A stretch of DNA of 64,000 nt from contig OZ029923.1 in assembly GCA_964023275.1 (NCBI GenBank), positions 3,515,239 to 3,579,238 on the forward strand. Reading direction: 5' to 3'. Shown one piece after another: positions 1 through 53,199 of this stretch. Each line of letters starts with the position of its first letter. Positions within the stretch are counted from its first letter, which is position 1. Below the pieces are notes generated by a model. The model made no database searches, was not told the DNA's origin, and saw only the letters and a list, made by a program, of their open reading frames with translations. Both the position numbers and the translations under genes were made by a program. This DNA is from Norana najaformis. Taxonomy: Eukaryota > Annelida > Clitellata > Crassiclitellata > Hormogastridae.

Positions 1-6
1 GCTCAC

Positions 7-36130
<36,124 letters not shown>

Positions 36131-45375: not shown

Positions 45376-45919
45376 CACATATGCATAAAGTATGCATGCA
45401 TACTAAGTAAGGTCACCAGTTTTTCACCATACAAGACCTCAACCACGACAAAACCGATTCCTGTCTTCAAAACCTGGATGAGACCGATATCTTCCATATA
45501 TATTCAAATGGATATATTCAAGATAATAATTAGAATACATGTATATAATTTTATTATTATTTTAAAGTATTTAGTATACATATAGTACATACACATACAC
45601 TTTTAGGATGTATTGAGTGTATTTGCATTTATGCCGTTGTTTTATGAAGGGCTGTTGTGGAGTAGAAGTAATCAGTCCGCACATGGGTATCATATATTAT
45701 GGTGAAGATTACGTGTTTATTGCAAGCATTGTGTTTGTTTAATTGGTTTATTGTTCTAGGCTGTTGTTTGCACAATTAGTTGTTGATCTTGTGAGGGAAG
45801 AACTGACTGGAGAACGTGAACTTATGTGACCTATCTTGTCCAGTGACTGCTATAGCGCCTCGGTTTGGTGAGAAATGTGATGGGATACTGGTAGGATTTG
45901 ACTGAGAGGTTCCTGTTTA

Positions 45920-46407
45920 CAATTGCTCTCTCTCTTTCGCTCTCTGTCCTCCTCTCTGTCTGTGTCTCTGTCTGTGTCTCTGCATCTCTTCTCCTCTCTC
46001 TCTCTCTGTCTCTCTCTCTTAACACCTCTCTCTCTCTTTTCTCCTTTATCTCTCTCGTTCTCTCTCTCGTTCTCTCTCTCGCTCTCTCACTCATTCGCTC
46101 TCTCTGTCTCGCTCTCTCTCTTTCTCTATGTCTCTATGTCTCTGCCTCTCTACTCCTTTATCTCTCTCGCTCTCTCTCTCTCTATCTATCTCTCTCTCTC
46201 TCTCTTCTCCTTTATCTCTCTCGTTCTCTCTCTCGTTCTCTCTCTCGCTCTCTCACTCATTCGCTCTCTCTGTCTCGCTCTCTCTTTCTCTATGTCTCTA
46301 TGTCTCTGCCTCTCTTCTCCTTTATCTCTCTCGTTCTCTCTCTTTCTCTCTCTCTCTCGCTCTCTCTCTCTATCTATCTCTCTCTCTCTTCTCCTTTATC
46401 TCTCTCG

Positions 46408-46442
<35 letters not shown>

Positions 46443-46926
46443 CTTTATCTCGCTCTCTCTCTTTCTCTCTCTCTCTCTCGCTTTCTCTATCTATCTCTCT
46501 CTCTTCTCCTTTATCTCTCTCGCTCTCTCTCTCTCTATCTATCTCTCTCTCTCTTTTCTCCTTTATCTCTCTCGTTCTCTCTCTCGTTCTCTCTCTCGCT
46601 CTCTCACTCATTCGCTCTCTCTGTCTCGCTCTCTCTCTTTCTCTATGTCTCTATGTCTCTGCCTCTCTACTCCTTTATCTCTCTCGCTCTCTCTCTCTCT
46701 ATCTATCTCTCTCTCTCTCTCTTCTCCTTTATCTCTCTCGTTCTCTCTCTCGTTCTCTCTCTCGCTCTCTCACTCATTCGCTCTCTCTGTCTCGCTCTCT
46801 CTTTCTCTATGTCTCTATGTCTCTGCCTCTCTTCTCCTTTATCTCTCTCGTTCTCTCTCTTTCTCTCTCTCTCTCGCTCTCTCTCTCTCTATCTATCTCT
46901 CTCTCTCTTCTCCTTTATCTCTCTCG

Positions 46927-46966
<40 letters not shown>

Positions 46967-47082
46967 TTTATCTCGCTCTCTCTCTTTCTCTCTCTCTCTC
47001 GCTTTCTCTATCTATCTCTCTCTCTTCTCCTTTATCTCTCTCGCTATCGCTCTCTTTCTCTCTCTCGCTCTCTCTCACTCAT

Positions 47083-47139
<57 letters not shown>

Positions 47140-47172
47140 TTCTCTCGACTCTCTCTCTCTCTCTCTCTCTGT
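45920..47172. repeat. CT-rich satellite with ~520-bp higher-order repeat
   Basis: Polypyrimidine tract of TCTC with marker words ACTCATTCGCTCTCTCTGTC and TATGTCTCTATGTCTCTGCC. Corresponding blocks at about 46,054 and 46,573, and at about 46,216 and 46,738, show a second level of duplication of about 520 bp. It ends in (TA)n. Confidence 0.95.
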
Positions 47173-47489
47173 ATTAATGACTGGATAGTCTTAATGTGAT
47201 AAATAGAAACTTCTCTAGCACTGTATGGTATGGTACCGTATTATACGATACTGTAATGTAGAGTGTAAAGGCCTGGCGCTATATTGTATTGTATTGTGTC
47301 GCCACTGAGGTTCACAGACAGACACACACACAGACAGAGACACACACAGACAGACACAGACATACAGACAGTGACATTTTACAGTTTGAAATACGTCTAG
47401 TTTTATTATGTGGACAGAACGTGTCACAATAACTACGGTCGCAATATTGAAAGCGAAAATTTGTAGCAATGTTTGCCAATAACAGTTTT

Positions 47490-48671: not shown

Positions 48672-50717
48672 CTAGATGACATATTGAAACTGTCTGGAGA
48701 GCAACTGGTGCTTGTTACAAGTTCGACACCTCTTGGCTAGGTGGTCGTCTGCCAGTTGGACCTGGTGAGGAATCAAACCCAGGCGCTGCTTCTGATAGTC
48801 GATCGACGGACTTCGCCTGTATGAACGGACGCTAGGAGTGGCGTTGCCGTTGCTGGGGGCAACCCCCGTTGAAGGATGGCCCAAGCCGAGGTTATATCGT
48901 CTCGGTCCGCTGGTCGCAGAGGCGCCGTCGGGTTCGCACCTGCGTCGGAGGAATTGCCGCCATGACTGCTTAGTCTCGACGCTGCAGATAGTGCGAAAGG
49001 CGGAGAAGACTGCGACGAGGACAGTCATGAGGACCTGGATCAAGAAGACGGTCACGGATCGATGATTCGTCCTCAGCTGTGAAGGGTCGTCGTCTAAGTC
49101 GCCGCGTTCCGGTCGCTTGCTACCGTCACGCTCGACCTCCCCAAGTTCCATGCTGCCCCGATCCCCTGCTCGCTCCACATGGATGTAACCGTAGAGGACG
49201 CAGGCGATCGCACCCAGCAGCGGCAGGGCGCAGACGATGCAGAACGTCGCCACACGCGCTACCGTCGCAAGGTCACGGTTCATTGATTCCGACTCGTCAT
49301 CTGCCCTGGGAGTGCCGGATCCTCCTGCACCTCGACGGCGACGAGTCTGGCAGTAGCCCAAGAGGCCTCCGCTGAGGAACGTGGCACCGATGAAGAGGAA
49401 GGCGACCATCGGGGCAAGCAGGAAACCAACGACTGCCTCCGACTCGTCTTCCGTCACGTGACACATTCCCGTGAACTCGTTCGGCTCGATGTTCTTCCGG
49501 ACGAGTATGATGATCACCTGGATGGCAGGTACGGACCAGGCGACGATGTGAAAGTAGGTTCCGAGGCGCTGAGCCGTGGCGTCCACGGTCCAGTGGAGTC
49601 CGGCGACGAAGAGCCAGGTAAAGGTCAGAACCAGCCACCAAACAATGCCCGCCATCGAGAAGTAGTAGAGCAGGACGAAGAGTATCGTGCAATCGGTGCT
49701 CGCAAGGCCACTCCTCGCCAGAACGCTCGGGTGGTGGTCTCTGGTGGCGGAATCGATCGTCACGCATGAGATGGCTCGGCGTCCGGCGATGACACGGACC
49801 AGGTAGGCAATGCTGCACATCCCGTAGCAGAGCGTCATGAAGACGACGTGGCGTTCGGTGGAGCGGAACCGCTGGGCGTCGACGAAGTACGTGGCCGCTA
49901 CGAGGGCCGTCGAAACGATCCCAATGCTCGACCAGACCGCCATCCAAATGTCAAGGACGGCCTTGTCCCGCTGAGCGAACCATAGGTCTGCGTCGCACAG
50001 CTGGAGACACTGCTGCGTCCTGTTGCTGTAGACGAACTTCTCCGGATGGTGCAGGTGTTGACAGTTTCCGGTGACTCTCCTGCCCGGAACCACTGAAGCG
50101 GAACCACCTAGGTAAATCGGTGATGGTGGTGGGGTAAAAGCCGTCGGTGGTCTTCGTCTGGGGTCGAATTTGCCGGAGATATCGTCGGTGCTAGTCGTGC
50201 CCTCCATGCACATGTGTTGGTTGTCGTTGAACGGGTGGAACTTGGAGCAGTTGAGTCCGGCGGGCCACGGGAATCCAAACTGGTGGAGGACCGGTTCGCA
50301 CCGTTCGCGCACCTTCTCGCAGACCGACCGACACGGTCCGATGACTTCGACGACCTTCTCCGTGCACATCGGAGCGTAGACGGCACACAGGAAGAACCGC
50401 AGCTCGTTGGAGCAGCCGTACTGGATCAACGGAGTGAAGGTCCTCAGCTGGAGATCGGCATCCGGTTGGGACTCGTGTCCAACGAAGTTCGGTAGACCGG
50501 TGACGTTGTAACCGAGTCCTTGGCAGGTGTCGACGCGTATCGGCTCGCACTTTCTCACCTTCAGGTGGTCCTCCGACGGCGTTGGACTGGCTCCCGATCC
50601 GAATACGTCCAGCGCCAGGTTGAGGACGAAGATGAGGCAAGCCGTCCGTCTCGAGGACCCAACAACCGCCGTCAACAACTCCATCGCTGCGATACGAAGT
50701 CCGAACGGCTTCAGCAA
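48672..50717 (-). CDS. fzd: Frizzled receptor (FZD4-like), intronless
   Basis: 681 residues; Wnt receptor of the plasma membrane (class F GPCR). Hydrophobic leader about residues 23-40; the alternative start M12 also gives a signal peptide. The cysteine-rich domain at 57-170 has all ten cysteines. Its signature GYNVTGLPNFVGHE, TFTPLIQYGC and LNCSKFHPFNDNQHMCMEG is closest to FZD4. Membrane segments: about 254-280, 289-312, 342-374, 387-408, 428-454, 484-512 and 553-577. ICL2 (WWLVLTFTW...YFH) is well conserved. Oddities: the C-terminal motif is ETKQSW at 581-586 instead of KTxxxW; there is a long charged insertion between TM6 and TM7 (about 514-552); the serine/basic tail ends QYVI. GC and codon use are richer than in the flanks. 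Single-exon structure is common for Frizzleds. Confidence 0.96.
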   Translation of the reverse strand: MLKPFGLRIAAMELLTAVVGSSRRTACLIFVLNLALDVFGSGASPTPSEDHLKVRKCEPIRVDTCQGLGYNVTGLPNFVGHESQPDADLQLRTFTPLIQYGCSNELRFFLCAVYAPMCTEKVVEVIGPCRSVCEKVRERCEPVLHQFGFPWPAGLNCSKFHPFNDNQHMCMEGTTSTDDISGKFDPRRRPPTAFTPPPSPIYLGGSASVVPGRRVTGNCQHLHHPEKFVYSNRTQQCLQLCDADLWFAQRDKAVLDIWMAVWSSIGIVSTALVAATYFVDAQRFRSTERHVVFMTLCYGMCSIAYLVRVIAGRRAISCVTIDSATRDHHPSVLARSGLASTDCTILFVLLYYFSMAGIVWWLVLTFTWLFVAGLHWTVDATAQRLGTYFHIVAWSVPAIQVIIILVRKNIEPNEFTGMCHVTEDESEAVVGFLLAPMVAFLFIGATFLSGGLLGYCQTRRRRGAGGSGTPRADDESESMNRDLATVARVATFCIVCALPLLGAIACVLYGYIHVERAGDRGSMELGEVERDGSKRPERGDLDDDPSQLRTNHRSVTVFLIQVLMTVLVAVFSAFRTICSVETKQSWRQFLRRRCEPDGASATSGPRRYNLGLGHPSTGVAPSNGNATPSVRSYRRSPSIDYQKQRLGLIPHQVQLADDHLAKRCRTCNKHQLLSRQFQYVI

Positions 50718-50746: not shown

Positions 50747-50947
50747 CGACGCCTTATTTATGGTAATACGACGCCTTATTTACGGTAATACGACGCCTTA
50801 TTTACAGTAATACGCCTTATTTGCAGTAATACGACGCCTTATTTGCAGTAATACGACGCCTTATTTGTAGTAATACGACGCCTTATTTACGGTAATACGA
50901 CGCCTTATTTACAGTAATACGACGCCTTATTTACAGTAATACGACGT
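50747..50947. repeat. 22-bp tandem array (9 copies) directly upstream of Frizzled
   Basis: Unit CGACGCCTTATTTACAGTAATA; eight copies of 22 bp and one of 19 bp, ending 30 bp before the Frizzled ORF start. Copies differ only by transitions at three adjacent positions. On the gene's strand each copy contains a match to the forkhead-type RYMAAYA motif (GTAAATA, GCAAATA, ATAAATA or ACAAATA). It is either part of the promoter/5' UTR or a neutral minisatellite. Confidence 0.85.
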
Positions 50948-51780: not shown

Positions 51781-51889
51781 TTAGCGCGGCTGCGTGTATA
51801 GAGATGCGTGTGAGCGACAGTTTGATTGAGATCGCTTTAAATAGGACCAGAGCGATGCTGGCTTTCTTTTTGTCTAACTCGCTAGCTCT

Positions 51890-52250
51890 GCTTCTGCGTG
51901 CCTGCCTGCCTGTCTGTTTGTCTGTGTGTGTGCTTGTCTACATGTATGTCTGTGCCTTTCTGTCTGCTTGTCTGTGTGTGTGTGTGCTTGTCTGTCTGTC
52001 TGTTTGTTTGCCTGTCTGTCTGTTTGCTTATTTGTTTGTTTGTCAGCATGTCTGTCTGTCGGTCTGTCTCTCTACTTGTCTGTTTGCCTGCGTGTCTGTC
52101 TATGTGTCTGTCTGTCTGCTGCTTATCTCTGTGTGTGTTTGTCTAAATGTATGTCTGCGTTTGTCTGTCTACATGTCTGTCTGTCTGCTTTTCTGTCTGT
52201 CTGCCTGCTTGCCTATATACCTGCTTGTCTATGTGTGTGTCTGTCCTTCC
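51890..52250. repeat. TGTC/TGTT microsatellite
   Basis: CTGTCTGTCTGTTTGTTTGC repeat with interruptions. Confidence 0.95.
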
Positions 52251-52255
52251 TTCCG

Positions 52256-53040
52256 TTAGTCCTCGATCCTCACTCTCTGTCCTCGATCCTCACTCGTTGT
52301 CCTCTGTCCTCGATCCTCGCTCGTTGTCCTCTGTCCTCGATCCTCGCTCGTTGTCCTCTGTCCTCGATCCTCGCTCGTTGTCCTCTGTTCTTGATCCTCA
52401 CTCGCTGTCCTCGATCCTCACTCGCTGTCCTCTGTCCTCACTCGCTGTCCTCGATCCTCACTCGTTGTCCTCTGTCCTCACTCGCTGTCCTCGATCCTCC
52501 ATCGTTGTCCTCTGTCCTCACTCGCTGTCCTCTGTCCTCACTCGCTGTCCTCGATCCTCACTCGTTGTCCTCTGTCCTCACTCGCTGTCCTCGATCCCCC
52601 CTCGTTGTCCTCTGTCCTCACTCGCTGTCCTCTGTCCTCACTCGCTGTCCTCGATCCTCCCTCGTTGTCCTCTGTCCTCACTCGCTGTCCACGATCCTCC
52701 CTCGTTGTCCTCTGTCCTCGATCCTCACTCGCTATCCTCTGTCCTCACTCGCTGTCCTCTGTCCTCACTCGCTGTCCTCGATCCTCTCTCGTTGTCCTCT
52801 GTCCTCGATCCTCACTTGCTGTCCTCGATCCTAACTTGCTGTCCTCTGTCCTCGATCCTCTCTGTCCTCGATCCTCACTCGTTGTCCTCTGTCCTCGATC
52901 CTAGCTCGTTGTCCTCTGTCCTCGATCCTCCCTCGGTGTCCTCTGTCCTCACTGGCTGTCCTCTTCCTCACTCGCTGTCCTCGATCCTCTCTCGTTGTCC
53001 TCTGTCCTCGATCCTCACTCGCTGTCCTCTGTCCTCGATC
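52256..53040. repeat. TCCTCGATCCTCACTCGTTG minisatellite
   Basis: About 785 bp of mixed ~18-30-bp units built from CCTCGATCC, TCACTCGCTG and TCCTCTG. A 950-bp open frame of SVLTRCPLS repeats comes from the unit. Confidence 0.95.
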
Positions 53041-53199
53041 GCAAGCAGTCGATTTGATCGGGCACTAATCACAGAACGCCGCCGCTCTGTCTGAAACCTT
53101 AAACGATCGTTATAGCAGGTGCGCGTCGTCCTGCGTTGCCCCACAGTCATGGACACCCAGATATGCGTATATCACGGATATATGGATACACGAGCGTAT

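Follow-up and report, generated by a model that had tools for sequence, protein, structure and literature searches.

Does a Frizzled that carries ETKQSW in place of the KTxxxW motif after its seventh transmembrane helix still engage Dishevelled? The question is raised by a gene on the minus strand of the DNA analysed here, a 64,000-nucleotide stretch of the Norana najaformis genome (the window). A single open frame at 48672..50684, stop codon included, encodes 670 amino acids; it opens with an ATG at 50684 and stays uninterrupted up to a stop codon whose last base is 48672, with an in-frame TAA 24 codons upstream of the ATG. Both parts expected of a Frizzled are present in order: a cysteine-rich, Wnt-binding domain (CRD) with 10 cysteines (residues 45-163; 50196..50552), matched by the Pfam Fz profile over residues 46-150 (4.6e-32), and then a seven-transmembrane region that retains seven hydrophobic stretches (residues 243-569, with boundaries from the alignment; 48978..49958), matched by the Frizzled membrane profile over residues 236-581 (1.2e-73). 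KTxxxW is absent. The minus-strand codons GTC GAG ACT AAG CAG TCA TGG read V-ETKQSW and place the substituted motif, in the helix 8 position, at 48960..48977. The preliminary description had read these codons correctly; its residue numbers 581-586 hold when counted from an upstream TTG and become 570-575 from the ATG. It was also right that the WxW of TM7 is lost, as the cytoplasmic end of this helix reads F-RTICSV-ET (RTICSV at 48978..48995) against M-WIWSA-KT in human FZD4, with one extra residue and both tryptophans, W7.55 and W7.57, gone. We rejected a frameshift or intron read-through as the origin of RTICSV, since a single frame carries the alignment through TM7 and helix 8 on either side of it and the other frames, judged by eye, do not restore the tryptophans. 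Mononucleotide-shuffled versions of the coding sequence contain a mean of 20.6 stops and never fewer than 9 (2000 shuffles), against the open frame of the real gene, and GC3 lies between 0.63 and 0.9 in all but two of the 22 blocks listed (0.43 and 0.53). A single-sequence AlphaFold model of residues 40-600 reached a mean pLDDT of 46.1 and was unusable.

The receptor class, left unrecognised in the preliminary description, follows from the CRD tree and from identity, which place the gene in Fz4; we regard it as almost certainly Frizzled-4-type. Among solved relatives FZD4 scores best (386 bits), followed by FZD7 at 283.9, and the CRD is 67.5% identical to that of human FZD4, compared with 40.5-50.4% for seven non-Fz4 sequences. 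Smoothened was rejected as an identity, given a best SMO chain of 98.4 bits versus 386 for FZD4 and a proline, not phenylalanine, at position 6.43. In trees of 14 sequences that include only three human chains, the CRD of the window protein and that of a second N. najaformis receptor (L010) group with human FZD4 at a support of 99; the two form a mutual pair with a support of 49 in the CRD tree and 96 in the membrane-part tree, where this pair joins FZD4 and two Fz9/10 genes at 100, with FZD4 and Fz9/10 together at 54. For the Fz4 signature 1C-R-0C named in PMC4669655, a reading of the alignment by eye gives YLVR, an ECL3 lacking cysteine and an FZD4-like linker cysteine pattern, at most a tentative correspondence. 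The C-terminal ES/TXV motif of Fz4 is absent from both copies: the tail of the window protein (residues 583-670; 48675..48938) ends in QYVI and that of L010 in ITVL.

A comparison of all Frizzled genes of the species, which the preliminary description had called for, was made by a profile search of the genome (608,420,607 bases in 17 contigs). It returned 15 Frizzled matches: eleven are full-length genes, each in a single frame, and the other four, all on contig 4, are pieces the size of an exon, of which the one bearing TM7 matches Smoothened. The eleven genes comprise four Fz1/2/7 (L001, L002, L003, L005), three Fz5/8 (L004, L007, L008), two Fz9/10 (L006, L009; a label inferred from a comparison that held no human FZD9 or FZD10 chain) and two Fz4 (L010 and the window gene). 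KTxxxW is intact in nine of the eleven. The glutamate is not private to the window gene: both Fz4 copies carry it at the motif lysine, as ETKQSW (GAG) in the window and ESLQSW (GAA) in L010. The shared residue disfavours a base-call error and, at the level of sequence comparison, glutamate is probably a feature of the Fz4 pair of this lineage rather than one stray base. The L010 locus (G000:C2:19287000-19294000) also encodes a leucine at P6.43, a position described as strictly proline or phenylalanine in an alignment of more than 750 class F receptors (PMC8225760, in the part available). The four classes, in 4, 3, 2 and 2 copies, are spread over nine contigs, and these copy numbers may point to an old large-scale duplication in the lineage. 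Two further loci were noted. L011 (G000:C4:8483000-8492000) is a Smoothened-like gene split over several exons whose TM7 exon reads ETLNSW at the motif, with glutamate where the ATLLIW of solved SMO has alanine. L012 (G000:C6:9848500-9856000), roughly 10 kb upstream of L005 (Fz1/2/7 type), is a 389-amino-acid open frame that encodes two Frizzled-type CRDs in tandem and lacks a Frizzled membrane region; its product is a candidate for a secreted Wnt binder with a double CRD.

Landmark sites were named after the cited papers, and their columns were taken from the multiple alignment. We take W494 of FZD4 to be position 7.55, on the basis of the alignment here and the motif spacing of FZD6. Among these landmark sites, six changes are found in the window copy only: Y2.39 to serine, P2.40 to threonine, F328 to leucine, G488 to alanine, W7.55 to threonine (with the one-residue insertion) and W7.57 to cysteine. 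At the first of these, residue 275 (49860..49862; equivalent to FZD4 Y250), tyrosine occupies the position in 13 of 13 other aligned Frizzleds, and at residue 358 (49611..49613), the equivalent of F328, the 13 others have phenylalanine or tyrosine. L010 alone shows P6.43 to leucine, W335 to arginine, A339 to serine and the motif threonine to serine, and it retains W7.55. Common to both copies are K499 to glutamate, G492 to alanine, K334 to histidine or aspartate, and changes at the K, L and M that are otherwise invariant in the KLEKLM stretch of ICL3. In the window gene this loop, which with the first TM6 residue spans residues 443-477 (49254..49358), is also longer, and the basic residue at 6.32 is kept as arginine (residue 477). 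R6.32, E2.41 and W8.54 are unchanged in both copies; the window copy keeps the motif threonine and tryptophan, R6.32, E2.41 and also P6.43. T237, a possible match to position 1x53 of PMC10387068, is lost there too and was left out of the site count. As judged from the alignment, the cytoplasmic docking surface, formed by ICL1, ICL2, ICL3, the end of TM7 and helix 8, is heavily altered in the window gene.

The consequences of such changes in mammalian receptors are described in the available parts of several papers. In FZD6, W7.55L and R6.32A abolish DVL recruitment and raise agonist potency for mini-G (PMC6368630). In FZD5, Y2x39A and W7x55A reduce DEP affinity and TOPFlash, Gq coupling of W7x55A is maintained or slightly reduced, and W8x54A, inside the motif, lowers TOPFlash with DEP affinity unchanged (PMC10387068). 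FZD4 F328S and F328A fail to recruit Dvl2, and the aromatic F328Y and F328W succeed (PMC4831297). With P6.43F, DVL2 recruitment drops in FZD5 and FZD6, not in FZD4 and FZD7, and the TOPFlash of FZD4 and FZD5 is reduced (PMC8225760). Among variants of familial disease, FZD4 K499E is listed as an FEVR missense variant and was only modelled in that source (PMC6408821), and the FEVR deletion M493_W494del takes out W494 (PMC6885210). The preliminary description had assigned KTxxxW a role in binding the PDZ domain of Dishevelled. This has given way to a reading in which the motif is mainly part of a helix 8 under the membrane and the DEP domain, not PDZ, is the Frizzled ligand (PMC9234668, as far as available).

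Invariant columns have been lost far more often from the membrane part than from the CRD in both Fz4 copies. We scored 94 columns that are constant in human FZD4 and the nine other Frizzleds of this genome (also in FZD5 and FZD7, as far as their residues were given). Of the 33 such columns in the CRD the window gene has lost 1, of the 3 in the linker none, and of the remaining 58 it has lost 23 (Fisher p 5.8e-5, linker left out); the corresponding figures for L010 are 2/33, 0/3 and 19/58 (p 0.0039, likewise without the linker). The columns lost by both number 11 against 8.3 expected, which is not above chance (p 0.11). Pfam scores point the same way: for the membrane region the window gene reaches 250.9 and L010 290.1, compared with 389.6-455 for the other nine, and for the CRD the pair is lowest of the eleven at 115.8 and 115.9, next to 117.9-124.3. 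Expressed as z, the membrane scores lie at about -8.1 (window) and -6.3 (L010) and the CRD scores at -1.9 and -1.8. Identity to human FZD4 (window and L010, respectively) is 68 and 67% in the CRD, at the low end of CRD comparisons with human orthologues (67-68% for the pair, 68-81% for controls), and falls to 24 and 28% in TM6 and to 28 and 33% in TM7-H8, whereas the four Fz1/2/7 genes compared with FZD7 hold 68-74% in the CRD, 64-92% in TM6 and 69-77% in TM7-H8. Counted as residues, TM7-H8 matches number 11/39 and 13/39 for the Fz4 pair, 27-30/39 for Fz1/2/7 against FZD7 and 22-25/37 for the three Fz5/8 genes against FZD5. From TM6 to helix 8, all control comparisons give 59-92% identity, and even across classes non-Fz4 sequences are 52-70% identical to human FZD4, where the Fz4 pair reaches 27 and 31%. 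Terminal branches of the pair are the longest of the 14 in the CRD tree (0.35 and 0.36) and measure 1.36 and 0.92 in the membrane tree, where the other twelve span 0.18-0.68. Branch-length ratios do not single out the pair, and an argument drawn from them was given up: the TM/CRD terminal branch ratios of 3.9 (window) and 2.6 (L010) fall among those of the remaining twelve sequences (1.4-6.5, plus 50.7 for a sequence whose CRD branch is close to zero); a general speed-up of the Fz4 pair therefore explains part of the pattern.

To call KTxxxW invariant, as had been done for this locus, is too strong: altered or missing motifs have been published for sponge, ctenophore and insect Frizzleds. In the available portions of these sources they include HduFzdA, MleFzdA and SciFzdA (PMC8235796), MlFzdB (PMC2959043) and glass-sponge FzdB (PMC5684314), with disagreement over MleFzdA, which PMC2959043 gives as KTASNW and PMC8235796 as altered or missing. 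The motif is also reported as lost in dipteran and lepidopteran Fz4 (PMC10560568), and every Frizzled of Platynereis, Fz4 included, is reported to have it (PMC4669655). KTxxxW is thus unsuited as a strict criterion for the Frizzled family, since published Frizzleds also fail it. Among the matches listed in a literature search on motif and function, with partial coverage, no natural Frizzled with glutamate at the KTxxxW lysine appeared; this substitution, with multi-site losses in an Fz4 pair, is a variant of the exceptions already published. The sponge and ctenophore receptors resemble the window gene in that they, too, are Frizzleds in which the motif is naturally substituted or absent, but they are not described as Fz4 in the parts of PMC8235796, PMC5684314 and PMC2959043 at hand. 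Insect Fz4 is of the same class and lacks a canonical KTxxxW. There the motif is reported as lost, whereas the window gene retains its threonine and tryptophan and changes only the lysine, in a genome with two Fz4 copies, one of which also lacks Y2.39, the aromaticity at F328 and W7.55. Butterfly Fz4 knockouts were interpreted by their authors as loss of a Wnt antagonist, and a decoy was proposed; the same paper cites another study in which butterfly Fz4 has an intracellular repressing role and later an activating one (PMC10560568). Drosophila and butterfly Fz3 are attenuating, decoy-type receptors, and butterfly Fz3 shares with L010 a threonine-to-serine change at motif position 2, but they belong to another class, and a change of the motif lysine is not among what the available part of PMC10560568 reports for them. 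The human FEVR variants (PMC6408821, PMC4831297, PMC6885210) offer the same change (K499E) or the same positions (F328, W494) as disease alleles; in the window gene they are the reference state. Smoothened, reported not to recruit DVL2 (PMC8225760, in part), is similar in that L011 of this genome also has glutamate at the motif lysine; the window protein differs in being a Frizzled by its CRD and membrane scores and in retaining P6.43.

In order to rationalise these features at the level of function, we consider it somewhat more probable than an even chance that the window gene encodes a Wnt-binding Fz4 receptor whose coupling to Dishevelled is poor and which plausibly acts as a decoy; this is the best overall explanation of the sequence. 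With its CRD and seven helices retained, the protein is predicted to bind Wnt at the cell surface; its altered cytoplasmic surface would recruit little Dishevelled or none, and the receptor could then act as a sink that holds Wnt at the membrane or as a competitive antagonist, a role put forward for insect Fz4 that lacks KTxxxW. Strongly reduced Dishevelled recruitment is the likelier element of this proposal, and whether a decoy function would be its main role we judge to be evenly balanced. The weak coupling first suggested from the motif alone thus fits, and is strengthened by the alterations at Y2.39, F328, W7.55 and ICL3 in the same protein; what does not carry over is the picture of a single gene departing from an invariant motif. 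The window gene combines, in one intact frame, lesions made singly in the laboratory (W7.55, Y2.39, F328) with a listed disease substitution, K499E, and would in this way probe at several sites which receptor residues Dishevelled needs. Taken with insect Fz4, a poorly coupled window gene suggests that Fz4 may have been uncoupled from Dishevelled more than once.

The main rival is a G-protein-biased Fz4, in which loss of the R6.32/W7.55 lock would abolish Dishevelled recruitment and leave G-protein coupling in place or raised. The absence of W7.55 next to a retained R6.32, in a protein with all seven hydrophobic stretches, would suit such a receptor, as would the raised mini-G potency and blocked DVL recruitment of FZD6 W7.55L and R6.32A (PMC6368630) and the largely preserved Gq coupling of FZD5 W7x55A (PMC10387068, both in part); however, L010 retains W7.55, and the many other altered cytoplasmic residues are closer to a broad relaxation than to one switch, and we consider this reading unlikely. 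We think equally little of a normal Wnt/Dishevelled receptor in a fast-evolving pair, whose helix 8 and loops have drifted and yet dock. The retained motif threonine and tryptophan, R6.32 and the unexceptional branch ratios speak for it, and the need for KTxxxW is said to be non-uniform, with a Drosophila FZD2 lacking the motif cited as still signalling (PMC4834752, in part). A diverged Dishevelled, itself assumed to be present in this genome, could possibly compensate. Against this, several DVL-relevant sites are altered together, and since the KT and W persist in the nine other receptors of this genome, the partner on which all of them dock presumably still requires these residues.

The strong decay of TM6 and TM7 would also follow if the gene were a recent pseudogene or the product of an assembly error, but such a reading is hard to reconcile with 670 open codons where shuffled sequences always acquire stops, with the mostly high GC3, with an intact set of CRD cysteines and hydrophobic stretches and with the same glutamate in L010, and we regard it as highly improbable. 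A wider version of the preferred, poorly coupled receptor would have both Fz4 copies of the lineage turned into Dishevelled-independent, naturally biased Wnt receptors, maybe acting via G proteins, through separate micro-switch losses (Y2.39, F328 and W7.55 in the window; P6.43, W335 and the motif threonine in L010) on top of the shared lysine-to-glutamate change. To this we assign a low probability, below that of either receptor rival.

The remainder of the window was surveyed for other genes. No second Frizzled was found in the 64 kb (tblastn, E up to 1), no Rfam match reached its gathering score and no tRNA was detected, and no relatives appeared in bacterial and archaeal genome contigs. 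Pfam searches covered 10 of 403 complexity-filtered frames (from 509 of at least 50 amino acids) and gave nothing above cut-off and one chance-level match below it. A 1330-amino-acid open frame on the minus strand (1-3990), which runs to the window edge, matched no Pfam family with E values allowed up to 0.1. Long open frames at 45898-47199, 51804-53094, 6220-7107 and 24063-25017 consist mostly of simple repeats (CT-rich, ACAT-like, CTGT-like) and are probably not genes. A 22-base unit repeated 9.2 times with a 92% match (50747-50946) closely precedes the ATG of the Fz4 gene.
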